Positions 22,703 through 47,076 of a stretch of DNA of 64,000 bases are shown here, piece after piece. Both the position numbers and the translations under genes were made by a program. Under the pieces are notes generated by a model, which was not told the origin of the DNA, searched no databases, and saw only the letters and a list, made by a program, of their open reading frames with translations. Each line of letters starts with the position of its first letter. Within the stretch, counting starts at the first letter, position 1. Source of the DNA: Lachnospiraceae bacterium (lineage in GTDB: Bacteria > Bacillota > Clostridia > Lachnospirales > Lachnospiraceae); NCBI GenBank assembly GCA_017431515.1, contig JAFRKV010000037.1:41965-105964 (forward strand). Direction: 5' to 3'.

Positions 22703-22709
22703 GTAAATC

Positions 22710-24643: not shown

Positions 24644-24732
24644 AGAGTACCCCTCCACAATCCAAGATGAACATGCATTGAGGCTGCAGCGTTTCCGCCG
24701 AAGCCCGTAACTTTGGTCTGTCTTTTATGATA

Positions 24733-24754
24733 AGGGGCGGCAACTGCCGCCCCT
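24733..24754 (-). terminator. Stable intercistronic hairpin after the binding-protein gene
   Basis: A 10-2-10 perfect hairpin (AGGGGCGGCA/TGCCGCCCCT) lies between the solute-binding-protein stop (24778) and the MalF-type gene. There is no strong U-run after it, so it is more likely a partial terminator or a 3' stabiliser, which raises binding-protein mRNA over permease mRNA. Confidence 0.65.
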
Positions 24755-24777
24755 ATCAAATTCATAATCCGAATGGA

Positions 24778-26163: not shown

Positions 26164-26239
26164 CTTTTTCCTCCTTCGTAAATGTTGTGTACCTTTTCCG
26201 CAAAAGGAAGATTACCTTTTGCGTTTAAGTTCACCTATT

Positions 26240-26267
26240 ATGATAAACCGATCATCAAAAAAAGCAA
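26240..26267 (-). promoter_or_regulatory. Candidate promoter of the sucrose ABC-transporter operon
   Basis: Minus strand: -35 TTGCTT (26267-26262), 16-nt spacer, -10 TATCAT (26245-26240). It lies about 75 nt upstream of the binding-protein start. An inverted repeat (TTTGTGA, 11 nt, TCACAAA; 26275-26299) lies just upstream of the -35. Confidence 0.45.
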
Positions 26268-26332
26268 GTCTTTTTTTGTGATTCGTCGTTTCTCACAAAT
26301 AAGACTCGCTTCTTTTGTGCTTTTTGCTGTCT

Positions 26333-26346
26333 CGAAATCGTTTTCG
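26333..26346. promoter_or_regulatory. Candidate LacI-family operator
   Basis: The sequence cgaaatcgttttcg is an almost perfect palindrome (one mismatch) around a central CG, the usual layout of LacI-family operators. It lies in the 219-bp gap between lacI-type gene and transporter operon, upstream of the candidate promoter. Binding by the neighbouring regulator is inferred. Confidence 0.45.
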
Positions 26347-26382
26347 CGGAAACATCGGCCAGGATCCGCTGTTTCCGGTTCG

Positions 26383-27423
26383 TCAGAATTCCTCTTTCAG
26401 GTTCTTGACGCTGCTGCGGATCAACAGCTCCGCCGGCATGATCACCTCATTCTCAGCCGGACTGTTTCCATGAAGAAGATCGATCAGCGTTGTGGCTGCA
26501 AGCTCCCCCTTCTCGATGATATCCTGATGCACCGTCGTCAGCGGCGGCCGGCAGAGCTTTCCGCTCCGGCTGTCATCAAATCCCACCACAGAGAGCTGCT
26601 CCGGCACCCGCAGCCCTCTGGCAAAGCAGGCATTGACCAGCATCGTTGCATAGGTGTCCGAACAGCAGAATACCGCGGTAAACCGCTCGGCCTTCTCCGC
26701 CAGTTTTTGAAAGGACTGGTCGATCTCGTCTTTCCCGGAACGCAGCTGCAGCACGTTTTTGTCGCTGTACTCGATCCCGGCTTCCTCCAGCGCTCTCCGA
26801 TATCCACGGAAGCGCTCCAGATCGACGCCCGAGATCTTATCCGACAGGAACGCGATCCGTTCATGTCCCATCGTGATCAGATAATGCACCGCCTCGTAAG
26901 CGCCCTTTTCATCCTCTAGTCCGATATTCACAAAGGAGTTTTCAAACTGCTCGATCGTCTCTTTCTTAATATAGGTATCCACGCAGACCACAGGCTTCCG
27001 GTATTTCTTATAGATGCGGAGCGCATCGTCGTCCTGCATCCAGAACAACACCAGCCCGTCGGCATTCCACGTGGTCACATACTTGATGATCTCGGCAATA
27101 TCATCGGAGATATAGAGCATCATAAAATAACCGGCCTCCCGGATCACCTGCTCAATGCCGCCGAGCAGCTCCGACACAAACGCATCCGCCAGAATATGCT
27201 CAAACCGGTCTTCCACGGTCTTTAAGACCACGCCGATGATCTTGGACCGGCTCTGCGCCAGGTTTCGCGCACTGATATTCGGGACGTACTCCACTTCCTC
27301 CAGAAACTTCTGCACCCGGGCAATCGTCTCCGGCGAAACTTCCCCTGTCTTTCCGCGAATCACATTGCTCACTGTCGTCGGGCTCATCCCAAGACGGTTG
27401 GCGATCTCCTTGATTGTGATCAT
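26383..27423 (-). CDS. LacI-family transcriptional regulator
   Basis: A 346-aa regulator. Residues 1-25 hold the LacI helix-turn-helix (TIKEIANRLGMSPTTVSNVI), followed by the hinge helix (NISARNLAQSRS) and a periplasmic-binding-protein-like sugar domain (IIGVVLKTVEDRFEHILADA, ERIAFLSDKISGVDLERFRG, LSVVGFDDSRSGKL). It probably controls the sucrose operon directly downstream. It starts 24 nt after the glycosyltransferase-like gene of the NRPS-like cluster, on the same strand, so it may also be reached by transcription from that cluster. Confidence 0.9.
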   Translation of the reverse strand: MITIKEIANRLGMSPTTVSNVIRGKTGEVSPETIARVQKFLEEVEYVPNISARNLAQSRSKIIGVVLKTVEDRFEHILADAFVSELLGGIEQVIREAGYFMMLYISDDIAEIIKYVTTWNADGLVLFWMQDDDALRIYKKYRKPVVCVDTYIKKETIEQFENSFVNIGLEDEKGAYEAVHYLITMGHERIAFLSDKISGVDLERFRGYRRALEEAGIEYSDKNVLQLRSGKDEIDQSFQKLAEKAERFTAVFCCSDTYATMLVNACFARGLRVPEQLSVVGFDDSRSGKLCRPPLTTVHQDIIEKGELAATTLIDLLHGNSPAENEVIMPAELLIRSSVKNLKEEF

Positions 27424-27447
27424 ATCTTTTTACTCCCTTAATGATTG

Positions 27448-28929
27448 TTACGAAATACCCGGGACATCCATGTAGTCAAATCCGTTTTCGCTGAGCCCCC
27501 AGGCGATCTTCGCGGCGCCGCAGAGCGTCGTGGACAGCAGCGCTGCCGAGCGGGACAGGATGTAGATGATACTGATATAGCGAAGGTTCTCCGCATAACC
27601 GTCCCGGTTTTTTTCTTCTTTGTAGATATCTGCAAGGAACCGCTTGGAGGTGTCTGTGGGATCATAGTTGATCCGCTCCTGCTCCACGTAAAAGATCCTG
27701 TCTTTGAGATCCGATCGCATGAAGATGTCAAAGACCTTGTCGTCTTCCGTGGCCAGGAAGATCCCGTCGTAGCCGCCCTTTTGGAATAACGCGCTTGTTT
27801 TCTCCAGAATCTCTTCACCGGACAGCGGACGCATCAGATAGTTCGCAAGCTTTCCGGAAAGCTGCATATTATAATCCGATCCTCTCCCGACGACGCCGAT
27901 GTAGTTCTTCACGCCCTGCGGAACGACCTTTGCCGCCTGCTTTTCGCAGAAGTCTATCACATCCGGCTTGATATGAAGGTATTTTTTGATGAGTCCCGGG
28001 TAGTCGGCCAGAATGTCCTGCTCGTAAAGATACGGATTCTTGGTCTTCATCCCGTCATACGCCAGCAGAACGTTCTTGCTGTTATAGACATCCTCCACAG
28101 AGAATTCGGAAACAGGTTCGAAATACATGTCCCAGACATTTCTGCCGTCACCGTTTGCAAACTGATTGACCTCGCCGTAGATCCCGAGATCCACCACCGG
28201 ATACAGCTCCTGCCCGGTTTTTTTGATGACCTCCAGTTTGTTTAACACATATCGGAGCACGCCGGCGATGCCTTCATGACCGATATGGGATTTGATCAGG
28301 ATCAGCTTTTTATCCGGATTTTCCTCGCCATAGCTTGCGGTCTCCGTCAGCCAGAGCATGCCGTTCATCATCTGCAGGGAATTGTAAGTCATGTCCCGGA
28401 TGGAATCCTTGGAGATCAGAAAATCCCCGTCCTTCACCACCGTCATGACGTCTCCGGGGTGATCCGCACGGATCTGTTCCGCTTCCTTCTCCTCCACGAT
28501 GGAAACCTGAGATTCCCCTTTGAAAAAGAGCGCCGCCTTTTCATCCGTAAAGAACAGCTTCTTTTCCGGGAAACGCTGTCTGATGATCCGCGTGATGGCA
28601 TAGGTATATTCATCGATCTCATCAAAAATGAAGTGGTTCGCTCTCTTCAGCATCGTGTCATCGATAGGCTCTATGTCATAGGTGTAATGCCAGAATCCGC
28701 TGCTGGGCCCCATCTTGGACTTCACCACGATCTCTCCGCCGCAGTGGTTCGTGGCAAACATCAGCTGGTAAAGCGGTTTGTTTTCCGCGTCCACCACCGT
28801 CACCGGATCCTCCAGCATCTCCGGATGCGCAAAATAAAAGTCTCTTGCGTCCAGAAACACATGGTCACTTTCTTTGATCTTCTTTTTTACAAAGGATGCG
28901 CCCTCTGCGAGTGTCAATACCTTTACCAT
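27448..28929 (-). CDS. NodZ/fucosyltransferase-like protein (putative glycosyltransferase)
   Basis: A 493-aa protein without signal or membrane segments. The C-terminal half shows features of the NodZ/FUT8/O-fucosyltransferase GT-B fold: IGVVGRGSDYN corresponds to the donor-binding RGTDY-type motif, then FLATEDDKVFDIFM, and a last-domain segment SRSAALLSTTLCGAAKIAWG. The N-terminal half contains HEGIAGVLRYVLNKLEVIKK, also typical. If active it would transfer a sugar, possibly from a GDP donor, to the product or carrier of the neighbouring biosynthetic genes. It begins 12 nt after the STAS-kinase gene. The fold call is by motif only; the donor, acceptor and even activity are unknown. Confidence 0.6.
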   Translation of the reverse strand: MVKVLTLAEGASFVKKKIKESDHVFLDARDFYFAHPEMLEDPVTVVDAENKPLYQLMFATNHCGGEIVVKSKMGPSSGFWHYTYDIEPIDDTMLKRANHFIFDEIDEYTYAITRIIRQRFPEKKLFFTDEKAALFFKGESQVSIVEEKEAEQIRADHPGDVMTVVKDGDFLISKDSIRDMTYNSLQMMNGMLWLTETASYGEENPDKKLILIKSHIGHEGIAGVLRYVLNKLEVIKKTGQELYPVVDLGIYGEVNQFANGDGRNVWDMYFEPVSEFSVEDVYNSKNVLLAYDGMKTKNPYLYEQDILADYPGLIKKYLHIKPDVIDFCEKQAAKVVPQGVKNYIGVVGRGSDYNMQLSGKLANYLMRPLSGEEILEKTSALFQKGGYDGIFLATEDDKVFDIFMRSDLKDRIFYVEQERINYDPTDTSKRFLADIYKEEKNRDGYAENLRYISIIYILSRSAALLSTTLCGAAKIAWGLSENGFDYMDVPGIS

Positions 28930-28941
28930 GTCTGTACTCCT

Positions 28942-30156
28942 CTATCCTAAGCTCTCTGCAATCATCCCGTCAATCTCCGGAATTCGTTTCATCACTTCTT
29001 CATAGTAGTCAAGGAAGCGTTCCCGCCCCAGCGCTAGCCACCGGTCATGGGTCTCCTTCGGATGGTTCGGATGCAGCTCCGGGAAAAGCAGCAGCTTAAA
29101 GCCCAGCATCCAGTTGATGGTTTCATTGAAGAAGTTCTTCTTTTCCTCATCCGCCCCGGTAAAATACTGGTCCACAACACTGTCCCATAATTTTGCCAGC
29201 TCCGCAACCTCCAGACCGAAAAACTTTTTGGTCACCTCCGGATGCTCTTTTCCGACTGTGGCGCCGGAAAGCACCAGATCATAATAGGACGCGATAAAAT
29301 CAAACAGCGGATTCCCGTAGCCGATCTCTGCCATGTCCAGCAAAATCAACTCCCCGAAGACCTCTCCGATGTTGTTCGGATGAAAATCGCCGTGTACCAC
29401 GTTATCCCGGTCCGGCACAGCATGCAAAAAGGCCGTCATCTTTTCCCGCTCCTCCGCGGGCAGATAGTCCGCCTTCTCGATAAGCGAAAGAAAGGCCTCC
29501 TTCACGCTGTGCAGCTCATGCAGTTCGTCCCGGATCTCATGCATCTCCTTCAGGAGCTGCGCAAATTCTTCCGCATACATGGCGAAATTATCATAATCCG
29601 CATAGACCAGGCTGGCAAGGCTTGTGGTCTCCATGCGTTCAAACATGATCCCCAGCCGTTCTCCGTCTGTCACGACGGAATAGCAGATGGCAGACGGCAC
29701 CCCCAGCGTCAGCGCGATCTTTGCGTTCTGCCATTCTTCCCGGATCTCATCCGCCGTGGTTTTGTTGGAAAACATTTTGACAATGGTATCCTTTTCGATG
29801 GCATAGACTTCCCCGTTGGAGCCTCTTGCAATGGGGTCAGTCGTGATCGGATCAATCTTCATGATCTGCCGTTCGATCCGCATTTTCTTCACAAGTCCCG
29901 TCATATCCAGGACCTCATAGACCTCCGGCCGCACATGGATGAGGGAAAGCTCCGGCCGCTTTTTCGCCAGGGTCAGGATCAGCCGCAGTCCCGAGCTGGA
30001 GAGGTAATTCGTATCTGTCAGATCCGCGACTGCAGCGGTGTCAGCGGGCATCGCGTCCAACTTCCGCGAAAAAATTTCCAGATATTGTGCCGTATTCGTC
30101 GCATCCAGCCGTTCCGGAAAATGAATCATGGTAGTCTGTCCGTTTTGTGTGTCCAT
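28942..30156 (-). CDS. STAS domain fused to an APH/choline-kinase-like phosphotransferase
   Basis: A 404-aa two-domain protein. Residues ~8-95 are a STAS domain like those of anti-sigma-factor antagonists, with TNYLSSSGLRLILTLAK holding the Ser normally phosphorylated in SpoIIAA-type proteins. Residues ~105-400 are an aminoglycoside-phosphotransferase-like kinase: a Gly loop ARGSNGEVYAI, Lys in TIVKMFS, Brenner-type catalytic loop VVHGDFHPNNIG, and LLDMAEIGYGNPLFDF as the metal-binding DxD-like segment. It starts 1 nt after the second adenylation-protein gene. The kinase could phosphorylate a small molecule such as the cluster product; the STAS domain suggests control. Both are inference, the domains are clear. 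Confidence 0.75.
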   Translation of the reverse strand: MDTQNGQTTMIHFPERLDATNTAQYLEIFSRKLDAMPADTAAVADLTDTNYLSSSGLRLILTLAKKRPELSLIHVRPEVYEVLDMTGLVKKMRIERQIMKIDPITTDPIARGSNGEVYAIEKDTIVKMFSNKTTADEIREEWQNAKIALTLGVPSAICYSVVTDGERLGIMFERMETTSLASLVYADYDNFAMYAEEFAQLLKEMHEIRDELHELHSVKEAFLSLIEKADYLPAEEREKMTAFLHAVPDRDNVVHGDFHPNNIGEVFGELILLDMAEIGYGNPLFDFIASYYDLVLSGATVGKEHPEVTKKFFGLEVAELAKLWDSVVDQYFTGADEEKKNFFNETINWMLGFKLLLFPELHPNHPKETHDRWLALGRERFLDYYEEVMKRIPEIDGMIAESLG

Positions 30157-30157
30157 T

Positions 30158-33046
30158 TCAGTGTCCTGCCTTTCCTTCTAAATAGTCCACTGCGCTTGAA
30201 ATCAATCCGATATATCGTTCGATGCTCTCTTTGTCATAATTGCTGACGGAATACCGGACGGAGATCCTGATCTCATCCTCACCGGTATTATCTATGATGC
30301 TGATGCTGACAGATCCCGGCATATTGCTTCTGTCCACCAGATCCAGGTTTTCCTCGATCAGGGGATTCGGCTTCGCTTTCCGGTAAACATCCTTCTGATA
30401 AATATACCGCACCATGTCCGAACTGTCACCGATTTCCTGCTCGATGTAGGAATACTCCGGTGCCGCAATGCCGCGCTGTACCTGTTCTTCCATGGCTGAC
30501 AGCATTTCCTTCGGATCCGCGCCGTCAGGAGCGTGAAGACACATCGTCATGTTGTTCACCAGAAGTCCGAAGGCCGACACGCGTTCATGGTCATCCCTGC
30601 ATCCGTAGATCATCGTGATGAAAGCATGCTCCGTTTCATTGTACCAGGCTTCCGCAAGGGCGCAGGCAGTGAGATAAAAATTACTGTCTCTGTTGGGTCG
30701 GCGTTCAAACTGCCGTTCCATCCGGATCAGGTCCGCCTTCCTTTCCTCCGAATCTCTGTCTTTTTTCAGTCCCAGCGGCGTGCCCGCAGCGCGGACGGCA
30801 TTGAATTTTTCCCGGAAGGCTTTTTCCGACGCCTGATAATCCGTGCCTCCCTTTGCCTGAAACAGGCGCTTGATGACAGCATAGTAATAGTCTTTTTCGA
30901 TTTCATAATCCGATTGGACAAGGGTCTTCATCAGGTCCGTGCTGAAAAGGCGCATGGCGGAACCATCCGTGATCACATGGTGCACCGCGCCGAAAAAGAG
31001 GAGCGAACGTTCTGTCTGATATATCCGGAACCGGTAGAGCCTGCCGTTTTCAATGGGAATGACGGCCCCAATCTCCTTTTCCTTTTCGGGGAGATCCGCC
31101 TCCGTGATCCTTTCGATCTCCACCGGCTCATAGAAAGAGGCGTCATATTTCTGCCGGTAATTGCCCTCCTGATCCCGAAAGATCCGCATCTGAAGGCCCG
31201 GGTGCGCTTCGATCACTTGATTCAGCGCCTCCGCAAATTTCTTGCCATCCACCTTGCTGCTCAGCCGCCAGCCGAAGTATTGATTCAGGAAGCCGCTCTC
31301 CGGCGCATAGGACTGGCAGTAGATATTCTCGAGCTGTCCCGGCAGCAGCGGAAAGGTCTCCGTCATGGCCTCCCGGTTTTCTTTTTCGTTTTCCTCTTCC
31401 GATCGTTTCCGCTTGCAATGCATAGCAAGCGCTGTCGCGGTACGATATTTAAACACCTGCGCGGCGCTGATATCCAGTTCATCGCACAGACTGACAAATT
31501 GGATGCATCGCATGGAGTCGCCGCCGGACTCAAAAAAATCCTCATCCGCCCCCACTTTCTCAAGGTTCAGCGCCTTTGCCATGTTCTCGCATAGGTACCG
31601 TTCTGTTTCGTTTTTGGGTGCAACATAGGGATGATCCGCTCTTGCCGTCGCCGGCGGTTTCAATGCCTTTTTATTGATCTTGCTGCTGGCGTTCAGCGGG
31701 AATGCCTCCAGCGGAACATAATAGGTCGGGATCATGTAGCGGGGAAGGATTTCCTCCAGTTTGTCCTTCTCAAACTGCAGGGTCTCTCCCTTGAGCAGCC
31801 CCTTCTTTTCCGCTTCCTCCCTAAGATAATAAACCGCCACGTAAGCGCGGCTGCTTTCCGCAAAGCCTTTGGCGACCACCTTTTCCAGACCGGTGCATTT
31901 CTCCACGGCAGCCTCGATCTCCGCCGGTTCGATCCGGTTTCCGTTGATCTTAATCATGTCATCCGCGCGGCCCACGATGTAATAAAGCCCGTCCGCGTCT
32001 CTCCTGCAGATATCCGCCGTATGAAAATACCCGCCCCGCTTTGCCCGCGCGGTGAGCTCCGGCTGGTTTAAGTACCCCCGGAAGAAATCATTTTTGATGC
32101 AAAGCTCTCCTGTGCCTTCTCCTTCGATGATCTGATCATCGTCATCCACCAGCACAGCTTCCACTCCCGGCAGGGGCCGTCCGATGGGCGCCACATCATA
32201 AGCCTTTTCCAGGATGCAGTTCATGACCGCAAATCCGGCCTCCGAGCAGCTGTAGGTATTCAAAATCGCAGGCGTCCCTCCCGGATAATAAAGCCCGTTC
32301 GCGGGTTCCGAGCCGGTGCCGATCACCTTCAGATAAGGGCTGGGATCCTTATAGATCCGGATATAGGACGGCGGCAGGTAAAAGGAGGTCAGCTTCTTTT
32401 TCAGAATGAACTCTTTGTAATAGTTGAAATCCCGGAGTTTCTCCTCCGGCTCCAGGAGCGTCGTAATGCCGTCCATGGTGTTGTAGACCAGATTCAGCAG
32501 CGTATGCACAAAGGAAAGGGGTCCCGTCAGCGGCTTTTCATCCGGCAGAGACGCTTTTCTGTTTGCCGGCACGCTGGAGACGCATCGTTCGATGTTGCCG
32601 TATTCATGCATAATGCCCTTCGGCGTCCCCGTGGAGCCGGAGGTGTACACGACGTAGGCCAGCTGATGGGGCTTTGTCTCCTCATAGCCCTCAAGAGGCT
32701 CTGCTGTTTCCATGATGGTATCAAAGAGTGTCTGATCCAGTACCAGAACGCTGTTGGTATCCTCCCGGATAAAATCAATCCGATCCTTCGGATAATTATC
32801 CTGCACCAGCACAAAGGCTGCCCCCGCGCGCCACACCCCCAGCATGCAGCTGAAGAAATGCAGTTCCTTCGGCATCAGAATCTGAACGATCTGTTCCTCC
32901 CCGATGCCCTTTTCTTTCAGATACCGGTAAACCTTTGCGGCTTCCTGATCCACTTCGGAAAATGTGATACTTTCCCCGTCAAAAACGAATGCGGGCTTGT
33001 CTCCCATGGTTCGGATGGTTTCCGTCAAATAATCAAAGTACAACAT
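30158..33046 (-). CDS. NRPS-like protein 2: adenylation - carrier - condensation
   Basis: A 962-aa protein. Residues ~1-480 are an AMP-forming adenylation domain (AYVVYTSGSTGTPKGIMHEY, NTYSCSEAG, GRADDMIKINGNRIEPAEIE, SSKINKKAL). Residues ~490-560 are a carrier domain with DFFESGGDSMRCIQFV, whose Ser takes phosphopantetheine. Residues ~575-960 are a condensation domain with HHVITDGSAM. This A-T-C order differs from the usual C-A-T. By eye, the position of the amine-binding Asp of amino-acid-activating domains is not Asp (PLSFVHTLLNLVYNT), so the substrate may not be an alpha-amino acid. It overlaps the paralogue upstream by 14 nt. It has no thioesterase. Confidence 0.85.
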   Translation of the reverse strand: MLYFDYLTETIRTMGDKPAFVFDGESITFSEVDQEAAKVYRYLKEKGIGEEQIVQILMPKELHFFSCMLGVWRAGAAFVLVQDNYPKDRIDFIREDTNSVLVLDQTLFDTIMETAEPLEGYEETKPHQLAYVVYTSGSTGTPKGIMHEYGNIERCVSSVPANRKASLPDEKPLTGPLSFVHTLLNLVYNTMDGITTLLEPEEKLRDFNYYKEFILKKKLTSFYLPPSYIRIYKDPSPYLKVIGTGSEPANGLYYPGGTPAILNTYSCSEAGFAVMNCILEKAYDVAPIGRPLPGVEAVLVDDDDQIIEGEGTGELCIKNDFFRGYLNQPELTARAKRGGYFHTADICRRDADGLYYIVGRADDMIKINGNRIEPAEIEAAVEKCTGLEKVVAKGFAESSRAYVAVYYLREEAEKKGLLKGETLQFEKDKLEEILPRYMIPTYYVPLEAFPLNASSKINKKALKPPATARADHPYVAPKNETERYLCENMAKALNLEKVGADEDFFESGGDSMRCIQFVSLCDELDISAAQVFKYRTATALAMHCKRKRSEEENEKENREAMTETFPLLPGQLENIYCQSYAPESGFLNQYFGWRLSSKVDGKKFAEALNQVIEAHPGLQMRIFRDQEGNYRQKYDASFYEPVEIERITEADLPEKEKEIGAVIPIENGRLYRFRIYQTERSLLFFGAVHHVITDGSAMRLFSTDLMKTLVQSDYEIEKDYYYAVIKRLFQAKGGTDYQASEKAFREKFNAVRAAGTPLGLKKDRDSEERKADLIRMERQFERRPNRDSNFYLTACALAEAWYNETEHAFITMIYGCRDDHERVSAFGLLVNNMTMCLHAPDGADPKEMLSAMEEQVQRGIAAPEYSYIEQEIGDSSDMVRYIYQKDVYRKAKPNPLIEENLDLVDRSNMPGSVSISIIDNTGEDEIRISVRYSVSNYDKESIERYIGLISSAVDYLEGKAGH

Positions 33047-35921
33047 CTTTTCCCTCCAGATAGTCTACACTCTTGAAAAACAGCTCCGCATAACGCTCCG
33101 CGCTTTCCTTCGCATAACAATCCTTCACATAAGTAATGGCAAATCCGATCTTGTCGTAGGTGCCGTGGTCAAAGAAGGTGACGCCGAAGATTCCCGGCAT
33201 GATCATCGCATTGGGAAGCTTCAGTTTCTCCTCCACAAGGTCTGTGGTATCCTGCCCCCCGTTATCGTCCCTCTGGTAATTGAAGCGGAGCATCCGGGAG
33301 GTATCTCCGATCCTGTCATCCGCATAGGAATACTCCGTATGGGTCATCGCATACTCATTCTGTTCCTTCATCTCCTGCAGCAACTCTGCGGGCGGTTTCT
33401 TCGTGTCGAGTCCCAATGCAAGAAAAGCCGCCAGATATCCTGCCGCAGCAAGCCGCTGGGGATCATCCCGATCGGAATAGATCGTGAGGAGAAACGCAAA
33501 GTCTGTTTGATTGTACCATGCCTCCGCCAGAAGCGCCGCCGTCATATAAAAGACCACGTCCCGGTTCGGCTTTCTTTCAAACGCATCCTTGAAGGCGAGC
33601 AGCGCGGCATTCCTCTCCCTTGCCTCCCGGTCCGGTCGAAGCCCCAGCGGAATGCCTGCTTTCAGATGATCGTCAAACCGTTTTCCGAAATAGGATGCCG
33701 CGGTTTGATAGGCTTCTGTCTCCTTCGCTTCCTCTGCGTCTTTTAAGATCGTAAAATAGTAATCCGGCTTCCCTGCATACCCCTCCTGCTGATAACTGTC
33801 CAGGATCTCTCTGCGCAGCATGTCAACGGAGGCCCCGTCCGAGATCACATGGTGGATGATCAGGTAAAGGTAGAGCGCCTCTTCGGTTCGGATCACACCG
33901 CACCGGTAGAGCTTTCCGCCTTCCACCTGAAACGGTGCCTTCAGCGTCGGCAGCTTCGTCCGGAATTTTTCCTCCGTCATCTCTTCGACGGAGACCTCTG
34001 TCAAAAGGGTTTCGTCATATTTCTGGCGGCAGATGCCGCTCTTAAGATCTTTACACAGCCGGACATGAAGACCCGGGTGGTGTGAGAGCACTTCATTGAC
34101 GGCACGGCAGAGCCGGTCGGCATCCGCTTCTTTTTTCAGTTTCAACGCAACGGGAATATTCAAAAAGTCCGACTCCGGCGCATAGGCCTGAAAACAGAGA
34201 TTCTGCTTCTGCCCCGGCAGCAGCGCCCAGTCTTTCTTTTGCGCTTCCAGATTTTCCGCCGCAAGCTCTGCGTCGGAGCGCTTCTTTTGCACGTGCTTTG
34301 CGATCTCCTTCGGCGTCTTGTATTGAAAAATCAGTTTGGAACTGAGGGCAATCTCCTCGCATTCGCTGACCAGTTCGATGCATTTCATGGAATCGCCGTA
34401 CAGCAGGAAATCATCCTCCGCGCCGACTTTTTCACGTCCCAGGGCCTGCGCCATCTTCTCGCAAAGGTACTTTTCCATATCGTTTTCCGGGGCCACATAG
34501 TCCGAAGCCAATGCTTCCGCGTCCGGCACCGGCAGCTCCTTGCGGCTCTTTTTCCCGCTGGCGGTAAGGGGAAAGGCATCCATGGGCACATAGACAGAAG
34601 GGATCATATACTGGGGAAGCCGCTGTCTGAGGGCATCCTCATCCACCTTCAGATGATTCCCGGCAAGAATCCCCAGCTCCATGGCCTGTTCCCTGATAAA
34701 ATACACCGCAACGAAGCTGCGGCCATCCTGGGAAATGCCTTTTGCCATGACTTCCGGAAGCCCCGTTACCTGTTCCACGCCCGCTTCGATCTCGGCCGGT
34801 TCGATGCGGTTGCCGTTGATTTTGATCATGTCATCCGCACGGCCCACAATATAATAAAGACCGTTCGCATCTCTCCTGCAGACATCCGCCGTATGGAAAT
34901 ACCCGCCGCGTTTTGCATGGGCTGTCAGTTCCGGCTGGTTTAAGTATCCGCGGAAGAAATCATTTTTGATGCAAAGCTCTCCTTCGCCGACACCCTCCAC
35001 GATTCTGTCATCTTCATCCATCAGCACCGCTTCCACTCCCGGCAGCGGACGACCGATGGGTGCCACATCATACGCTTTGTCCAGAATGCAGCTCATGACG
35101 GCAAAGCCTGCCTCCGAGCAGCTGTAGGTATTTTTGATGGCCGGAACGCCTCCCGGATAGTAAAGCCCGTTGGCCGGCTCCGATCCCGTGCCGATCACCT
35201 TGAGATAGGGGCTCGGCTCTTTATAGAGCCTGATATAGGATGGCGGAAGATAAAAGGAGGTCAGCTTCTTCTCCAGAATAAAATTCCGGAAATAATTGAA
35301 ATCCCGCAGTTTCTCCTCCGGCTCCAGCAATGTGGTGATGCCGTCCATGGTATTGTAGACCAGATTCAAAATGGTATGGACAAAGGAAAGGGGACCCGCC
35401 AGCGGCTTTTCTTCCGGGATATCCTCCCGGTCTTCCTTTGCCGGCACACTGGACACACATTTGTCCACGTTCCCGTATTCATGCAAAATGCCCTTCGGCG
35501 TCCCCGTGGAGCCGGAGGTAAACACCACGTAGGCCAGCTGATGCGGATCTGTTTCTTCATATCCGGCAAGAGGCGTCTCTTTCTCCATGATCTCGTCAAA
35601 AAGCTGCTGATCCAATACCAGCACGCAGTTTGCATCCTTCCTGATAAACTCGATCCGATCCTTCGGATAATCATCCTGCACCAGCACAAAAGCAGCCCCC
35701 GCGCGCCAAACTCCCAGCATGCAGCTGAAGAAATGCAGCGCTTTCGGCATCAGGATCTGGACGATCTGCTCCGCGCCGATCCCTTTCTCTTTGAGATAAC
35801 GGTAAACCTTCGCCGCCTCCGTATCCAGTTCGGAAAACGTGATACTTTTCCCCTCCGCGGTAAAAGCCGGCTTATTTGGTTTTTCTTTGATAACCTCATT
35901 CAGGTGGTCAAAATACAGCAT
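33033..35921 (-). CDS. NRPS-like protein 1: adenylation - carrier - condensation
   Basis: A 962-aa paralogue of the downstream protein, with the same A-T-C order and length. The adenylation domains are nearly identical over long stretches (AAKVYRYLKEKGIG, FFSCMLGVWRAGAAFVLVQD), while the condensation domains differ more. Adenylation motifs are FTSGSTGTPKGILHEYGN and GRADDMIKINGNRIEPAEIE. The carrier motif is shortened (DFLLYGDSMKCIELV) but keeps the Ser. The condensation motif HHVISDGAS is intact. I chose the ATG at 35921 (GAGGAG eight bases upstream), matching the paralogue; an ATG two codons earlier is too near the ribosome site. It starts 12 nt after the free-standing condensation gene. 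Confidence 0.85.
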   Translation of the reverse strand: MLYFDHLNEVIKEKPNKPAFTAEGKSITFSELDTEAAKVYRYLKEKGIGAEQIVQILMPKALHFFSCMLGVWRAGAAFVLVQDDYPKDRIEFIRKDANCVLVLDQQLFDEIMEKETPLAGYEETDPHQLAYVVFTSGSTGTPKGILHEYGNVDKCVSSVPAKEDREDIPEEKPLAGPLSFVHTILNLVYNTMDGITTLLEPEEKLRDFNYFRNFILEKKLTSFYLPPSYIRLYKEPSPYLKVIGTGSEPANGLYYPGGVPAIKNTYSCSEAGFAVMSCILDKAYDVAPIGRPLPGVEAVLMDEDDRIVEGVGEGELCIKNDFFRGYLNQPELTAHAKRGGYFHTADVCRRDANGLYYIVGRADDMIKINGNRIEPAEIEAGVEQVTGLPEVMAKGISQDGRSFVAVYFIREQAMELGILAGNHLKVDEDALRQRLPQYMIPSVYVPMDAFPLTASGKKSRKELPVPDAEALASDYVAPENDMEKYLCEKMAQALGREKVGAEDDFLLYGDSMKCIELVSECEEIALSSKLIFQYKTPKEIAKHVQKKRSDAELAAENLEAQKKDWALLPGQKQNLCFQAYAPESDFLNIPVALKLKKEADADRLCRAVNEVLSHHPGLHVRLCKDLKSGICRQKYDETLLTEVSVEEMTEEKFRTKLPTLKAPFQVEGGKLYRCGVIRTEEALYLYLIIHHVISDGASVDMLRREILDSYQQEGYAGKPDYYFTILKDAEEAKETEAYQTAASYFGKRFDDHLKAGIPLGLRPDREARERNAALLAFKDAFERKPNRDVVFYMTAALLAEAWYNQTDFAFLLTIYSDRDDPQRLAAAGYLAAFLALGLDTKKPPAELLQEMKEQNEYAMTHTEYSYADDRIGDTSRMLRFNYQRDDNGGQDTTDLVEEKLKLPNAMIMPGIFGVTFFDHGTYDKIGFAITYVKDCYAKESAERYAELFFKSVDYLEGKDVVL

Positions 35922-35933
35922 GGTCATGTCTCC

Positions 35934-37160
35934 TCAAGATTCCTCAAGATATTTCACAGCGTCATTAAACAGCTCCAGATACCGCTCCATACTCTCCTTC
36001 TCATAGCAGGCCAAGGCGTAGCGCAGGAACAGATGGATTTTACCGGATTGTTGACTATCCACAAAGGACAGCCCCATGACCCCGGGCATCACGGAGGATT
36101 CCGGAAACTTCATGACCTTTTCCGGAAGGTCTGTCTCCCGGATCCAGCCCAGGCCATCCTTCTGATAATTAAACCGCATCATCAGAGAAGCGTCACCGAT
36201 CTTGTCCTGCATATAACTATACTCGGTATGTGCTCTTGCGAACCGGTTCTGCTCCTTGATCTGGGAAAGCAGCGCCTCGGGAGATTCGTCTCCTCCGAGG
36301 ACGAGTCCCAGTGTAAGCATCGCGGCGAAAAAGCCTGCCGAGGCGCTTCGCAGCGGGTCGGGCCGGTCTGCATTGATCGCCTGCAAAAATGCGAACTGGG
36401 TTCCGTTATACCAGGCAGCAGCCAACACCGCCGCAGTCTTCAGGAAATTGACATTCCGGTTTTCCTTTCTTTCGATAGAATGGAGAATCGTTGCCAGCGT
36501 CCTGTCCTTTGACTCATGATCGATGCGGACGCCAAGCGGGACGCTTTTGCTGCGTTCATCAAACAACGCGCCGAAATAGGACCTGGCTTCCTCATAGGAC
36601 TCTGCCTCTTTCCGCTCTGCGTGCTGCTTCAGCAGATAAAAGTAATGATCCTTCTCCCCTGCATAAGCGCCTTTCTGATAACTCTGAAGAAACTGCAGCA
36701 TCATGAGGTTCAGGGCGCTCAGATCCGTAATGGTATGATGCAGAACCATATAAAGATAAAGACCTTCTTCTGTCCTGATGAGTCCGCATCGGTAAAGCCG
36801 TTCCTTTCCCAACGAAAAGGGTGCATTCAGTTCCCTGATCCTTTCCGGCAGCGCCTCCTCACTGAGCTCCTCGGTCCCGGCCTGCACAGCAAAAGACGGC
36901 TCATATTTCTGATAATAAATTCCGGTATCCTCATCCGCATAGATATTCATACAAAGACAGGGATGTTCCTTCAGCACCAGATTCACGGCATCTTCCATGC
37001 GTTTCTGGTCCACACCCGCTTTCAGCTTGATCATGCTGTGGAGATTCAGAAAGCTGTCCCCAGGTGCATAGCTTTGTGCGTAAACGTTCTGCCTTTGCGC
37101 GGGAAGCAGCTCCCATTCCTTTGCCATTGCTTCCCGGTTTTCTTTGTCATAATCAGGCAT
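35934..37160 (-). CDS. Free-standing condensation-domain protein with altered active-site motif
   Basis: A 408-aa protein consisting only of a condensation domain. Its N-terminus (DKENREAMAKEWELLPAQRQ) is the same as the linker that joins carrier and condensation domains in the two A-T-C proteins, so it appears to be a third copy without the A-T part. The catalytic motif is HHTITDLSALN: the second His is present but the Gly of HHxxxDG is Leu. It may still transfer an acyl group, or be a structural partner. RBS GTGAGGAAGG. It overlaps the upstream gene by 8 nt. Confidence 0.75.
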   Translation of the reverse strand: MPDYDKENREAMAKEWELLPAQRQNVYAQSYAPGDSFLNLHSMIKLKAGVDQKRMEDAVNLVLKEHPCLCMNIYADEDTGIYYQKYEPSFAVQAGTEELSEEALPERIRELNAPFSLGKERLYRCGLIRTEEGLYLYMVLHHTITDLSALNLMMLQFLQSYQKGAYAGEKDHYFYLLKQHAERKEAESYEEARSYFGALFDERSKSVPLGVRIDHESKDRTLATILHSIERKENRNVNFLKTAAVLAAAWYNGTQFAFLQAINADRPDPLRSASAGFFAAMLTLGLVLGGDESPEALLSQIKEQNRFARAHTEYSYMQDKIGDASLMMRFNYQKDGLGWIRETDLPEKVMKFPESSVMPGVMGLSFVDSQQSGKIHLFLRYALACYEKESMERYLELFNDAVKYLEES

Positions 37161-38394
37161 CCTTCCTCACCTCCACTCCTGCGCACTGCAGTTCCTCCGA
37201 AAATCCTTTGAAATACGCACCCGTGTCAAAGCTCTGGGAGATCGTGATGATCTGGTCCTCTCCCACGCGGTTTAAATACACCGCAAAGGGATATCCCCCC
37301 GCCGCATACCGATGGTCCTCCAGCACCCTCCCGGGCGACGGCTCATAGTATTCCTTCCCCACATTGGTCACGATCATGGACTGATGGTAAAGCGCCGCCA
37401 CGTCCGGATCCATTACGCCGGTCCGAATCCGCTCTTTCAGGGCCGACAGCTGCCATCCTACGGCATCCACCGTCAGCTGCGCCTCCAGTCCTTGCAGCAT
37501 GGCCTCCACGTCCTCCGCGCGAAGTTCCCGTTTCAACTGTTCCGGTTGCAGCATGAGCGCCGCCTGAGGCAGGCTGAAATTACGAAGTGCCTCCTCTTTC
37601 CCGCAAAGAGATCGGGTATTCACAGGACACCGCAGCGTGACGGGGAGGGTGTTCTCCGGGTGGAGCCTTGCAATCACGCGTCCCAACAGGAAATACACAT
37701 AAACGCATTGCAGTTTTCCCAGGGGCAGTGTCAACCGGTTCGCCTTTTGAAACGCCTCCTCACTGATGGGAAACGCCTTTCGCGTTGCCTCGTAAAACGC
37801 CCTCGCATGTATTTTGATCCGAAAGACCGCTTCTTTTTTCTCCGCGGCAGACTGTTCCGGAAATTGAAAGACCTCTGTCGGGATCAAAGCCTCCGGCTTT
37901 CTGCCGGGGCATGGAAAGATCGGATCCTCCAGCAAATCCGCTTCCGTGTCCCAGACCTGTAATGCGCCCGTTTCGTCGGCATAAGGATGGACATATGGCT
38001 GTTCATCCACCTGTCTGAAATAATGATACAGCAGCAGACAGGTAAACAGTTTTTTCCCGCATTCATCCGTCAGGGCATGGGATACGCCCACCTTGAGCCG
38101 GTCTCCCTGTGCGCAAGTCCAGACCAGATCTCCTCCCAGCGCGGCCGGGTGATTTCCTGCCTCCGTATCGGAAAAGCCTTCGGTATTTCCGGTGCTCTCG
38201 TGGGGGGTAAAGAAAAGCGCGCCGTCCTGCAGCTGTAATCCCTGATCAAAAAATGGACAGTCCTTGAGTGCGGCTTTCCAGGCGTTTTTCAGGCACCGGA
38301 TGTCAATCTCGTGATCGAGGCGCAGCGTGTTCTGGTTAAACAGCCGGTTCTCAAGATGCGAACGAAAAAAATAGCCCGATGTGTTATCTTTCAT
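37153..38394 (-). CDS. Divergent condensation/acyltransferase-superfamily protein
   Basis: A 413-aa protein resembling alcohol-acetyltransferase or condensation-type proteins in outline. The active-site region reads GVSHALTDECGKK, so the first His of HHxxxDG is Ser and the Gly is Glu. Further conserved-looking parts are SMIVTNVGKEYYEPSPG near the C-terminus, similar to the second half of condensation domains, and FRSHLENRLFNQ at the start. I chose the ATG at 38394 with AGGAG five bases upstream. It follows the ABC exporter by 56 nt (a gap with a small hairpin) and overlaps the next gene. It is a candidate initiating or terminating acyltransferase; activity is uncertain. Confidence 0.6.
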   Translation of the reverse strand: MKDNTSGYFFRSHLENRLFNQNTLRLDHEIDIRCLKNAWKAALKDCPFFDQGLQLQDGALFFTPHESTGNTEGFSDTEAGNHPAALGGDLVWTCAQGDRLKVGVSHALTDECGKKLFTCLLLYHYFRQVDEQPYVHPYADETGALQVWDTEADLLEDPIFPCPGRKPEALIPTEVFQFPEQSAAEKKEAVFRIKIHARAFYEATRKAFPISEEAFQKANRLTLPLGKLQCVYVYFLLGRVIARLHPENTLPVTLRCPVNTRSLCGKEEALRNFSLPQAALMLQPEQLKRELRAEDVEAMLQGLEAQLTVDAVGWQLSALKERIRTGVMDPDVAALYHQSMIVTNVGKEYYEPSPGRVLEDHRYAAGGYPFAVYLNRVGEDQIITISQSFDTGAYFKGFSEELQCAGVEVRKDA

Positions 38395-38418
38395 GGTGAC
38401 TCCTGTCCTCTGCGAAAG

Positions 38419-38448
38419 GCAGCGGGGCAATGCCCCTTTTTCTGCTGC
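38419..38448 (-). other. Intercistronic hairpin between exporter and biosynthetic genes
   Basis: GGGGCA/TGCCCC with a one-base centre (38424-38436), flanked by GCAGC/GCTGC, lies in the 56-nt gap. No U-run follows on the minus strand, so it is probably a processing or stability element, not a full terminator. Confidence 0.4.
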
Positions 38449-38450
38449 GG

Positions 38451-40331
38451 TCAGGCCGCGGAGGTCTCAAACTGGCTGTTGTAGAGATCCGCGTAAAACC
38501 CTCCCTGTTTCATCAGTTCTTCGTGATTGCCGCTTTCGAGGATATCTCCGTCCTTCATCACCAGAATCAGATCCGCGTTCTTGATGGTGGAAAGACGGTG
38601 CGCAATGACGAAGGAAGTCCGCCCCTTCATCAGCTCATCCATCGCTTTCTGGATCAGGGCTTCCGTTCTGGTATCCACAGAGCTTGTCGCCTCATCCAGG
38701 ATCAGCATCGGCGCATTTTCCACCATCGCCCGCGCAATGGTGACCAGCTGCCGCTGTCCCGCGGAAAGCCCCGCGTTGTCGGAAAGCACGGTGTCATAAC
38801 CATCGGGCAGGGTCTTGATAAAATGATGCAGGCCCACTGCCTTGCAGGCGCGGATGATCTCTTCATCGCTCCGGTCGGTTTTGGAATAGCGCACGTTTTC
38901 TTTAATCGTTCCTTCAAAAAGCCAGGTATCCTGCAGCACCATGCAGAAGAGATCGTGGAGATTCTCTCTCGTCAGTTCATCGATCGGCACGCCGTCAATA
39001 CGGATCTTCCCGGCATTGAGCTCATAGAAGCGCATGAGCAGATTGACCATGGTGGTCTTTCCGGCGCCGGTTGGCCCGACGATGGCGATCTTCTGTCCGG
39101 CTTTCACCTCTGCGGAGAAATCGTGGATGATGGTCTTTCCCTCGTCATAGCCAAACCGCACATGGTCGAAAGAGACATCTCCTCTCACATCCGTTAATGT
39201 CTTCGTCTTTTTGCTCTCCTCCTCCATCTCCGTTTCCCCCAGGAACCGGAAGACCCTGTCGCTGGCCGCCGCTGCAGATTGCATGCTGTTGGCAGTTTGC
39301 GCGATCTGGGAAAGGGGCTGGCTGAAATAGCGGATATAAAGCATGAAAGCCACGATAACTTCGAAACCGATCACCTTTTGCATGGTCAGCACCGCGCCCA
39401 CCACGCAGACCACCACATAGCCGAGATTGCCAACAAAGTTCATGATCGGCGGCATCATGCCGGAAAAGAACTGGGATTTCCATGCGCTTTGATAAAGCTT
39501 CGTATTCATGGCGGCAAAGGCTCCCTTGGCCTGCTTCTCGCCGTTAAAGGCTTTGATGACGGAATGGCCCGAAAAGGTTTCCTCAATATGCCCGTTCAGC
39601 GCACCCAGACCGTATTGCTGCATCAGGAAATACTTCTGCGACCGTTTCAGGATCAGGGACATCAAGGCGAATCCGATCAGGGTGGACAACACCCCCGCTA
39701 TGGCCATGATCCAGTTGGTGACGAACATCATTACAAGGCTCCCGACGAACAAGGTCAGCGCGGAAACCAGTGATCCCAGGCTCTGATTCATGGCCTGCAC
39801 CAGCGTGTCCACATCATTCGTCACCCGCGACAGCACATCTCCCACCGTGTTATGGTCAAAATACCGGAGGGGGAGCTTGTTGATCTTCACGGAAATATCC
39901 CCGCGAAGACCTTTGGAAGCCTTCTGTGTCACCACTGCCAGGATCTGCCCCTGCAGATAGCTGCACAGAAAGCCGATGGCATACAGGATCAAAAGGGAAA
40001 TGGCGATCTTCACCACGCCTGCCACATCAATGGTGGTTTTCAGGCCGTCCGTGATCAGCTTTGTGATGGCGGAGAGCCTTCCCGGTCCCAGGAGGTTTAA
40101 GATCGTCCCCGCAATGGAAAGGAGCGATGCAAATATGATCAGCGGAAGATACCGTTTCATATAACGGATCAGCTTTCCCATGGCGGATTTGAAATTCATG
40201 GATTTCATTTTCTTCGCCATGTTCTTTTTCATTTCAGGCGTGAGTTTTCCCGGATCGACACCCGCTTCCGTCATCTTTTCCATCATTTTCTTTTTCAGCG
40301 CTTCTTTCTGCGCTTCTGTGAGTTCAGGCAT
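38451..40331 (-). CDS. ABC exporter half-transporter with canonical ATP site
   Basis: A 626-aa exporter with an unusual ~60-aa charged N-terminal extension (Lys/Met/Glu-rich, residues 1-55), six membrane segments at about 65-350 and an ATPase domain. Walker A is GPTGAGKTTMV, signature LSAGQRQ, Walker B ILDEATSSVD with the catalytic Glu, and the H-loop is VIAHRLSTIKNADL. It overlaps its partner gene by 8 nt (40324-40331), and together they form a heterodimer. Type IV exporters of this kind move lipids, peptides or drugs. Sitting at the head of the NRPS-like gene run, it probably exports the product. Confidence 0.9.
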   Translation of the reverse strand: MPELTEAQKEALKKKMMEKMTEAGVDPGKLTPEMKKNMAKKMKSMNFKSAMGKLIRYMKRYLPLIIFASLLSIAGTILNLLGPGRLSAITKLITDGLKTTIDVAGVVKIAISLLILYAIGFLCSYLQGQILAVVTQKASKGLRGDISVKINKLPLRYFDHNTVGDVLSRVTNDVDTLVQAMNQSLGSLVSALTLFVGSLVMMFVTNWIMAIAGVLSTLIGFALMSLILKRSQKYFLMQQYGLGALNGHIEETFSGHSVIKAFNGEKQAKGAFAAMNTKLYQSAWKSQFFSGMMPPIMNFVGNLGYVVVCVVGAVLTMQKVIGFEVIVAFMLYIRYFSQPLSQIAQTANSMQSAAAASDRVFRFLGETEMEEESKKTKTLTDVRGDVSFDHVRFGYDEGKTIIHDFSAEVKAGQKIAIVGPTGAGKTTMVNLLMRFYELNAGKIRIDGVPIDELTRENLHDLFCMVLQDTWLFEGTIKENVRYSKTDRSDEEIIRACKAVGLHHFIKTLPDGYDTVLSDNAGLSAGQRQLVTIARAMVENAPMLILDEATSSVDTRTEALIQKAMDELMKGRTSFVIAHRLSTIKNADLILVMKDGDILESGNHEELMKQGGFYADLYNSQFETSAA

Positions 40332-42114
40332 CTTCAGGTTCCCTCCTTCCCGTCGTTTTGGTCAGTTCTTCTTTGGAAAGCTGGGATTCCGCGATCTCGC
40401 GATACACGGCGCAGGAAGAAAGGAGTTCCTCATGCTTTCCCTGCCCGACGATGAATCCCTCGTTCATCACAAGGATCCGGTCCGCATCCATGATCGTTCC
40501 GATCCGCTGGGCAACGATCAGGATCGTCGCGCCCTTTGTTTTCTCCTTCAATGCTTTCCGCAGCACGCGGTCGGTCTTATAATCCAGCGCAGAAAATGAA
40601 TCATCAAAAATGTAGATCTCAGGATTGCGATAGATGGCTCTGGCGATGGAAAGGCGCTGCCGCGGGCCGCCGGAGACATTGGTGCCGCCCTGGGAGATGG
40701 GCGCGTCAACGGTGCCTTCCATTTTGGAAACGAATTCCGCTGCCTGCGCCGTCTCAATCGCTGCCTGTACCGCCTCTTCCCCGCCGGGGGTGCTGTCACC
40801 GTATGCCACATTGGAACGGATAGTGCCGGAGAACAACGTGGACCGCTGCGGCACATAGCCGATCTTTTTCCGGAGGGCGCTTTGCTGATAGTCTTTCACA
40901 TTGACGCCGTCCACCAGCACTTCCCCGCCGCTCACATCAAAGAACCGCGGAATCAGATTGATCAGAGAGCTCTTGCCGCTTCCGGTGGATCCGATGATCG
41001 CCACGGTCTCTCCCTGATTTGCCTCAAAGGTCAGATGATGCAGGATGTCTCCCTCCGCATCCGGATACCGGAATGACACATCGCGAAACTCCACTTTCCC
41101 TTTGACGCCGGGTGCGCCTTCCGTGGCAGCGCCGTCCTGCATTCTGGTAACGGTCCTCAGCACCTCCTGGATCCGTTTCGCGGAAACACTGGCCCGGGGC
41201 AGAATGATCATCGTGATGGTGATCATCATAAACGCCATGATGACCTGCATCGCATAGGAGGAAAACACCACCATCTCGGAAAAGAGATTGACCCGCTCCT
41301 CCATGCCGGCGGCATCGATCATATAGACCCCCACCCAGTAGATGGAAAGGGTCAGGCAGGACATGATAAACGCCATCCCTGGCTGCATGATGGCCATGGT
41401 CCTTTGTACGAAAAGGTTGTTCCCGGTCAGATCTTCATTGGCTTTCCGGAACTTTTTCTCCTGATATTCTTCTGCATTGTAAGCCCGGACAATCCGGATA
41501 CCGGAGAGATTTTCTCTGGTCACGCGGTTCAGATTGTCCGTCAGGGTCTGGATCTTCATGAATCTGGGAATCACGATCGAAAAGACAATGGAAAGAAGCG
41601 CAAGAATCAGCACGACTGCAATGGCAGTCGCCGTGGTCCATTGCCAGCTTTTGCCGGAGATCTTGACCAGCGCCATCACCGCCATGATGGGCGCCCGCAC
41701 CAACACCTGCATCCCGAGGGCGATGACCAGCATCACCTGGGTCACATCATTGGTGGAACGGGTGATCAGACTTGGGGTGGAAAAGATCCCAATCTCCTCC
41801 ATCGTGAAATCCATGACCTTGTCATACACCGCTTCCCTGAGCCGCATGGAAAGGCCCGCCGCGATCTTTGCCACACAGAAACCGACAATAATGGAAGACG
41901 CAAGGCTGCCAAATGCACATGCAAGCATGAAGCCTCCTGCCTTCAAAACTGATGACAGCGGCGACCCTTCCGTCTGCACCAGTTTTGTGATGGTGGACAT
42001 ATTATCGGGGAGTTTCAGGTCGAACCAGACCTGCGTCAGGATAAAGATCAGGCCGAAGACAATGTAGCCAGCCTCTTTCTTTTTCAGATAGCGAAACAGC
42101 CGGAGTATATTCAT
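40324..42114 (-). CDS. ABC exporter half-transporter with degenerate ATP-site residues
   Basis: A 596-aa exporter, six membrane segments followed by an ATPase domain. Walker A is GSTGSGKSSLI. The Walker B is IFDDSFSALD with Asp in place of the catalytic Glu, the H-loop His is Gln (IVAQRIGTIMDADR), and the signature is VSGGPRQRLS with Pro for Gln. These changes mark the non-hydrolysing site partner of a heterodimeric exporter; its neighbour carries the complementary canonical residues. It is the first gene of the minus-strand run that continues into the NRPS-like genes. Its start lies in the 212-bp gap facing the GH13 operon. Confidence 0.9.
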   Translation of the reverse strand: MNILRLFRYLKKKEAGYIVFGLIFILTQVWFDLKLPDNMSTITKLVQTEGSPLSSVLKAGGFMLACAFGSLASSIIVGFCVAKIAAGLSMRLREAVYDKVMDFTMEEIGIFSTPSLITRSTNDVTQVMLVIALGMQVLVRAPIMAVMALVKISGKSWQWTTATAIAVVLILALLSIVFSIVIPRFMKIQTLTDNLNRVTRENLSGIRIVRAYNAEEYQEKKFRKANEDLTGNNLFVQRTMAIMQPGMAFIMSCLTLSIYWVGVYMIDAAGMEERVNLFSEMVVFSSYAMQVIMAFMMITITMIILPRASVSAKRIQEVLRTVTRMQDGAATEGAPGVKGKVEFRDVSFRYPDAEGDILHHLTFEANQGETVAIIGSTGSGKSSLINLIPRFFDVSGGEVLVDGVNVKDYQQSALRKKIGYVPQRSTLFSGTIRSNVAYGDSTPGGEEAVQAAIETAQAAEFVSKMEGTVDAPISQGGTNVSGGPRQRLSIARAIYRNPEIYIFDDSFSALDYKTDRVLRKALKEKTKGATILIVAQRIGTIMDADRILVMNEGFIVGQGKHEELLSSCAVYREIAESQLSKEELTKTTGRREPEDA

Positions 42115-42229
42115 GCTCTGCCTCTTTGTTCACGTTGCCGTTCTCTCATTTTCATACATTTTTTAATATACCATAATCCGCACTCTACTGCCACTATTTC
42201 ACACCGCTTTCTTTTTTTTTTAAAACGGG

Positions 42230-42257
42230 TTGACTTTTTTGGAAAACGTACTATAAA
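42230..42257 (+). promoter_or_regulatory. Sigma-A promoter of the GH13-GH13-CLC operon
   Basis: -35 TTGACT (42230-42235), 16-nt spacer, -10 TATAAA (42252-42257), about 70 nt before the first start codon. The opposite strand has a TATATT (near 42170) that could serve the ABC exporter operon but without a convincing -35. Confidence 0.7.
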
Positions 42258-42326
42258 TGGAATTATACTTTACCGTTAAAGGAAACGACATTTCTTGTTT
42301 CCCACACTTCACAAGGAGGCACGCGC

Positions 42327-44000: not shown

Positions 44001-44014
44001 ACGGAGGAAAATTC

Positions 44015-46953: not shown

Positions 46954-46957
46954 AAAA

Positions 46958-46983
46958 CAGTCATACCGAAATCGGTATGACTG
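46958..46983. terminator. Two-way intrinsic terminator between CLC gene and tRNA-Val
   Basis: A perfect 11-bp stem (CAGTCATACCG/CGGTATGACTG) with a 4-nt loop. On the minus strand it is followed by six T, ending tRNA-Val transcripts. On the plus strand a poorer pyrimidine run (CTTCTTCTCT) follows, ending the CLC operon. Confidence 0.9.
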
Positions 46984-46992
46984 CTTCTTCTC

Positions 46993-47065: not shown

Positions 47066-47076
47066 ATCCGCTCCTT

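Follow-up and report, generated by a model that had tools for sequence, protein, structure and literature searches.

What does a compact run of eight minus-strand genes, with synthetase-like, exporter and putative regulatory genes side by side, make in a Lachnospiraceae bacterium, and what might control it? The run occupies positions 27448..42114 of the window, that is, of the whole 64,000-nucleotide stretch that was analysed (positions 41,965 to 105,964 of contig JAFRKV010000037.1, assembly GCA_017431515.1; G000:C50:41965-105964 in our numbering). The source assembly comprises 2.35 Mb in 62 contigs and is 81.8% complete. The answer that we favour, and to which we would give an even chance, is that one operon serves to make, probably modify and export a small conjugate by a two-module, switch-controlled synthesis. 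Gene order, domains and motifs were taken from the sequence, and we infer the enzymatic and regulatory steps; the predicted structures are moderate to weak, and the GT2, NeuB and Sfp identities of neighbours were assigned by eye.

A two-module line in gene order

All eight open reading frames were present where a sequence-only reading of the window had placed them, in the transcription order ABCa, ABCb, C6, C5, ATC2, ATC1, STAS-kinase and NodZ-like gene. At the centre stand C5 (35934..37160, minus strand like all genes of the run; 408 amino acids, aa), a stand-alone condensation domain (PF00668, 5.8e-28; motif HHxxxDL), and two adenylation-carrier-condensation (A-T-C) proteins, ATC2 (33033..35927, 964 aa) and ATC1 (30158..33046, 962 aa). 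Both of the latter carry Pfam AMP-binding, PP-binding and Condensation domains, as had been proposed, with HHxxxDG in the condensation domain. The domains follow the module order of nonribosomal peptide synthetases (NRPS), and, judged by domain content, C5 / A2-T2-C2 / A1-T1-C1 is a colinear two-module line, split after each condensation domain and ending in one. The carrier serine for phosphopantetheine is present in both proteins (FSGGDSMR in ATC1, LLYGDSMK in ATC2), as expected of NRPS, and PP-binding in ATC2 barely reaches the Pfam cut-off (20.8 bits). ATC1 and ATC2 share 58% overall identity, and in the tree the A-T half of each is sister to that of the other; C5 is 47% identical to the condensation domain of ATC2. 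PF00668, a model that misses C6-like proteins, matched three places in the incomplete genome, all of them within the operon.

C6 (37153..38394, 413 aa from its ATG; motif SHxxxDE) had no Pfam or NCBIfam match and no PDB sequence match up to E 1. Its predicted structure, based on three sequences (mean pLDDT 56), gave a condensation domain as the top PDB match (6cgo, E 2.1e-7), with PapA and BAHD folds as well. Because this model is weak, we limit the claim for C6 to its fold class, which is probably that of the condensation domains and acyltransferases. The two free condensation-type proteins reported before were thus recovered, C5 by PF00668 and C6 by the weak predicted structure.

Neither a thioesterase nor a reductase domain, by which an NRPS would release its product, was found by Pfam in the eight proteins, and PF00975 thioesterase was absent from the 81.8%-complete genome, a search in which reductases were covered within the operon. 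The lack of a thioesterase had already been noted, with release by a condensation domain as one of three options; since PF00975 is absent from the genome, release by the terminal condensation domain is the simplest and most natural reading. A phosphopantetheinyl transferase had also been reported missing, which holds for the operon; elsewhere in the genome an ACPS-family gene occurs at a single place, on another contig (G000:C8), and its frame, judged by eye, looks like that of an Sfp-type enzyme. No ketoreductase was detected in ATC1 or ATC2 by Pfam at E up to 1.

The genes are closely packed. ABCa/ABCb and C6/C5 overlap by 8 nt each and ATC2/ATC1 by 14 nt, and gaps of 6, 1 and 12 nt separate C5/ATC2, ATC1/STAS-kinase and STAS-kinase/NodZ-like gene, respectively. 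The sole gap above 12 nt, whichever C6 start applies, is ABCb/C6, of 20 nt from a TTG start at 38430 or 56 nt from the likelier ATG at 38394, which has GGACAGGAG before it. The description of the genes as mostly overlapping or at most 12 nt apart therefore stands for every junction except this one.

Monomer class, glycosyltransferase fold and export

The pocket positions of the window proteins, position 235 included, were mapped by hand to GrsA numbering through an alignment with LgrA and GrsA motifs, with the ten position numbers of PMC11253843. Both adenylation domains of the window have the same pocket, VHLYITTFAK, with Val at position 235 and without the Asp235 that marks alpha-amino acid substrates in NRPS. 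Among 87 aligned A-T(-C) proteins, position 235 was V in 74, I in 8, A in 2, M in 1, D in 1 and a gap in 1, so that Asp235 occurred in one of 86 readable rows. The proline of the A5 motif was found in only two of the 87, L161_4325 (the row with D235) and L136_1 (which ends before position 235). Four of the five keto-acid codes tabulated in PMC5238615 begin with Val, and PMC11253843 describes a keto-acid adenylation domain with Met for the A5 proline; aryl-acid domains also replace this proline, and for that reason the monomer class is not fixed. Val235 is common to the window proteins and the keto-acid domains of CesA, CesB, PksJ and PyrG (PMC5238615), the replaced A5 proline to them and StsA (PMC11253843), and the A10 lysine is retained as in keto-acid-activating domains, whereas the remaining pocket residues are unlike those of keto-acid domains (VHLYITTFAK against, for example, VGMWNGTSIK). 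On Val235 and the missing A5 proline, the best reading is that A1 and A2 would load a carboxylic acid lacking an alpha-amino group. Elsewhere in the family, an A-T-C-type protein at L161:4325-8206 has Asp235 and the A5 proline, and its gene run also encodes an A-T-C protein with Val235; it is probably amino-acid-specific, and a mixed product is possible there.

The NodZ-like protein (27448..28929, 493 aa) had no Pfam or NCBIfam match and no PDB sequence match up to E 1. Its predicted structure, together with aligned relatives, gives it a fucosyltransferase fold of the GT23/NodZ type over residues 199-493, which bears out the earlier NodZ/fucosyltransferase-like assignment, and leaves the N-terminal 200 residues outside the fold. 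It is 8-15% identical to the alpha-1,6-fucosyltransferases NodZ and FUT8 and to POFUT1/2, and differs from them by these extra N-terminal residues. In the known enzymes a His precedes an Arg; this His is absent from the NodZ-like protein. Matches to it (E <= 1e-5), many of them partial, occurred in 40 of 397 family genomes.

ABCa (40324..42114, 596 aa) and ABCb (38451..40331, 626 aa) each have Pfam ABC_membrane and ABC_tran, and MsbA is the best NCBIfam match of both, below its cut-off. By eye, the nucleotide site of ABCa has D in place of the catalytic E after Walker B (IFDDSF) and Q in place of the switch H (VAQRI), and that of ABCb is canonical (ILDEAT, IAHRL). With two subunits that combine transmembrane and nucleotide-binding domains, one of them with a degenerate site, the pair looks like a heterodimeric exporter, as the sequence-only reading had it, and its view of biosynthesis and export genes as belonging together is supported by their forming one gene run.

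The A-T-C family and its partner-switch neighbours

A contig scan returned at least 400 stretches with at least 364 relatives (tblastn, E <= 1e-3). The best 80 of these were kept, gene calling found an A-T-C gene in 77 of them, and the remaining 284 may include ordinary NRPS as weak relatives. Matches at E <= 1e-120 occurred in 13 of 392 genomes sampled from the order, the source genome counted. The named origin of the nearest A-T-C relatives agrees with a Lachnospiraceae source. A-T-C relatives are common in rumen and gut Clostridia, and the earlier statement that the cluster has no known match holds only in that no characterised match was found, in a comparison that did not include MIBiG. 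Viral contigs searched with ATC2 gave three pattern matches and no relatives. Plasmids gave ten records (tblastn, E up to 1e-60; 26.5-28.8% identity). In none of them did a single place span 80% of the query, and those with annotation are labelled as ordinary NRPS.

In each of the 77 loci, neighbours up to three genes away from the A-T-C gene were counted, and likewise around 135 control genes of the same loci (>200 aa, outside the counted classes, at least seven genes from the A-T-C gene). STAS genes were found in 30 loci against 0 controls, MATE in 25 against 0, SpoIIE in 18 against 2, HATPase in 11 against 0, carboxylesterase in 41 against 1, NodZ-like in 6 against 0 and STAS-kinase in 6 against 1, counts that contig ends lower and close relatives inflate (58 of 86 tree rows belong to one clade), with control neighbourhoods that overlap. 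In the A-T-C tree, which has several long branches, the 14 rows with a NodZ-like or STAS-kinase gene in the locus cluster together (6 changes against a shuffled mean of 13.2; none of 500 shuffles as low).

The STAS-kinase (28942..30156, 404 aa) joins Pfam STAS (4.7e-7) to APH (1.1e-10), confirming the fusion proposed before, and had no match to the PDB by sequence. Its STAS serine motif is LSSSGL and its kinase motif HGDFHPNN. Relatives (E <= 1e-20) occurred in 35 of 299 family genomes, the source genome counted; of 33 stretches taken around them, 29 had a STAS-kinase frame of at least 300 aa, and the serine on which a partner-switch would act is intact in all 29. A NodZ-like gene lay within three genes in 2 of the 29. 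The protein thus resembles the SpoIIAA/SpoIIAB/SpoIIE switch in having a STAS domain with the conserved serine, and SpoIIE-type phosphatases and HATPase_c_2 proteins stand beside A-T-C relatives. It differs in its fusion to an APH-type kinase and in an operon with no phosphatase, HATPase or sigma factor: neither a cognate HATPase kinase nor a PP2C phosphatase was found by Pfam among the eight proteins. The same genome has 13 SpoIIE-domain places outside the operon.

Further genomes bear on the history of the site. In the same-genus genome G301 (L240) the flanking GH13 and LacI genes are retained (82% and 76% identity), and between them, at 11640-12860, lies an intact solo STAS-kinase (78% identical to the window copy, 404 residues) with none of the remaining seven operon genes. 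The ratio of nonsynonymous to synonymous substitution (dN/dS) between the two copies is about 0.09, at a synonymous divergence (dS) of 1.57 that is near saturation. A stretch at the end of the G301 STAS-kinase agrees in 40 of 58 bases with the 3' end of the NodZ-like gene, about half of it overlapping the STAS-kinase frame, and as a possible remnant it weakly suggests that the operon was lost in G301 rather than gained in the window genome. In G299, an assembly that is 8% contaminated and whose LacI frame has a stop, GH13b and LacI lie about 120 bases apart without the operon; the contig of G300, also of the same genus, begins 168 bases before LacI and is uninformative on the site. The operon is therefore an accessory one, and its STAS-kinase can persist where the rest is absent. 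Its being kept alone favours a regulatory role, though it may have other targets.

Several family loci carry further gene combinations. The MATE match extends into a C-terminal HATPase part in 11 loci, and all three proteins tested (L199:7885-9654, L135:4981-6783 and L206:3911-5668) had Pfam MatE plus HATPase_c_2, of the anti-sigma-kinase type, and adjoin STAS or STAS-kinase and A-T-C genes. PF00135-like carboxylesterases occur near A-T-C genes (for example L139, L143-L146, L148 and others of L127-L206; Pfam was run on L199 only) and may act in that branch as release or product-processing enzymes; no such gene is present in the window operon. A run of ATC, SpoIIE, STAS-kinase and NodZ-like genes is present in G252 and G715 (L102, L224), and G300 (L107) has in one run an ABC pair, STAS-kinase, ATP-grasp, NodZ-like, Y_phosphatase3, C-like and [C-A-T] protein. 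A parallel cluster in the source genome itself (L043, G000:C48:35000-54900) combines an ABC pair, STAS-kinase, ATP-grasp ligase, NodZ-like, SpoIIE and C6-like genes, with no A-T-C match.

More tentatively, with doubt outweighing confidence, we propose a widespread, undescribed clostridial class of single-module non-amino-acid synthetases and exporters under direct post-translational control by a serine partner-switch (STAS, SpoIIE and some MATE proteins with an anti-sigma-kinase-like domain), of which the window would be an elaborated two-module, glycosyltransferase and ABC form, its switch condensed into one STAS-kinase. A rumen survey (PMC8241843) counted 5,346 NRPS clusters in 8,160 genomes, the vast majority from Firmicutes. 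Titles and abstract openings, a scope outside which many subscription papers fall, yielded no report on STAS/SpoIIE-linked NRPS genes or MATE-HATPase fusions. If the A-T-C family is one coherent class, it would point to an enzyme logic that its members share, to a monomer class open to testing and to an unexpected form of control in host-contacting organisms. A transporter fused to an anti-sigma-kinase-like domain would, if true, couple a phospho-switch directly to the export of small molecules.

Weighing the readings

Under the preferred reading, an Sfp-like transferase encoded elsewhere would prime T1 and T2, and A2 and A1 would load one and the same kind of monomer, which may be a hydroxy, keto, aryl or short acyl acid. 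C5 would begin the chain on T2, C2 would couple the units borne by T2 and T1, and C1, at the end of the line, would release the chain to a soluble acceptor, a step proposed because no thioesterase was found; C6 might perform a further acyl step or deliver the chain to the acceptor. The NodZ-like protein would attach a sugar that a nucleotide sugar supplies, the product would leave the cell through the heterodimeric ABC protein, and the STAS-kinase may be the local part of a serine partner-switch that, with a SpoIIE-type phosphatase from elsewhere, toggles the pathway.

Several observations weigh against this scheme. C5 and C6 both deviate from HHxxxDG, which makes their activity putative, and the ATC2 carrier motif is one Gly short, so that T2 may be impaired. 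McyG, described as Phe-activating in PMC11253843, also has Val at 235, and for this reason A1 and A2 may yet take an amino acid. No GDP-mannose dehydratase (gmd) scored above the curated cut-off in the incomplete genome (81.8%), so that GDP-fucose is at most a candidate sugar donor for the NodZ-like protein, and the surroundings of A-T-C genes show no excess of ABC genes (8 of 77 loci against 14 of 135 controls). As to control, SpoIIE is missing from the operon; among the 29 STAS-kinase loci, 8 have SpoIIE no more than three genes away and none has an A-T-C gene that close, so most STAS-kinases are unconnected to synthetases and serve something else.

Among characterised systems, the nearest analogue that we found was the OaaA/OaaACP/OaaC pathway for gut fatty-acid amides in Coprococcus eutactus (PMC13142362). 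The two share a small clostridial gene set with a free-standing condensation protein and, by our reading of the window, adenylation of a carboxylate other than an alpha-amino acid and a small acceptor. In the Oaa pathway, however, the adenylation, acyl carrier and condensation proteins are separate, whereas in the window A-T-C is fused, duplicated and colinear, and C5 and C6 only are free of fusion. Condensation proteins of the Oaa type have (D/H)HxxxDS, their last position being preferably S or A; C1 and C2 (HHxxxDG) and C5 (HHxxxDL) depart from it, a tendency rather than a sharp distinction, since G occurs in 17%. The window also adds the ABC pair, the glycosyltransferase-fold protein and the STAS-kinase.

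ATC1 and ATC2 might instead work independently, each moving one acyl unit to a small amine or alcohol in the Oaa manner, without elongation. This would suit the single A-T-C gene per run in 71 of 77 loci (contig ends may hide some), the identical pockets of the window and the transfer to free amines by OaaC-type free condensation proteins (PMC13142362), but the colinear order of C5, ATC2 and ATC1, the fusion of A, T and C, and the HHxxxDG of C1 and C2, a motif in the 17% fraction of the Oaa-type clade, argue for elongation, and we hold independent transfer to be rather unlikely. Less probable still is the modification of a cell-surface polymer, in which the acyl group activated by the A-T-C proteins is put on a glycan made by the NodZ-like protein and the ABC pair flips a lipid- or glycan-linked unit. 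NodZ-like relatives do occur among glycan genes assigned by eye (NeuB-like N-termini, L104, L106), MsbA is the best, sub-threshold match of both ABC subunits, and L060 has ABC, STAS-kinase, C-like and A-T proteins beside GT2-like ones; yet none of the eight proteins was recognised by Pfam as a polymerase, priming transferase or wall ligase, and the MATE transporters within three genes of A-T-C in 25 of 77 loci fit a soluble product.

The sequence-only reading had also allowed for a phosphorylated product. That the STAS-kinase phosphorylates it, as tailoring or APH-like self-protection, is a minor alternative that we consider improbable. The kinase domain does match APH, and a Y_phosphatase3-like protein in L107 (Pfam) and L134 (BLAST) could reverse such a phosphorylation, but the STAS serine motif is intact throughout the 29 loci, A-T-C genes are linked to STAS, HATPase and SpoIIE, and G301 keeps its conserved STAS-kinase at a site without biosynthetic genes. 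The protein is more likely regulatory than a product kinase.

Base composition gave no signal of foreign origin (GC content 0.533 for the cluster against 0.516 and 0.536 on its two sides). Upstream of ABCa, the divergent intergenic region 42115..42326 has minus-strand promoter-like matches at 42279 and 42194 and may hold the operon promoter; these are consensus matches only, and 17 such matches were observed over 26200-42500 against 10.6 expected from shuffles. At the other end, a LacI gene follows the NodZ-like gene after 24 nt on the same strand and is assigned to the flanking sugar locus, not the operon, because it is so placed in relatives. A sugar-use region surrounds the operon, with GH77, GH32, a sugar-binding protein and the LacI regulator on this side (16793-27423); the opposite flank (42327-54990) encodes two GH13 enzymes, a CLC channel, GH36 and GH2.

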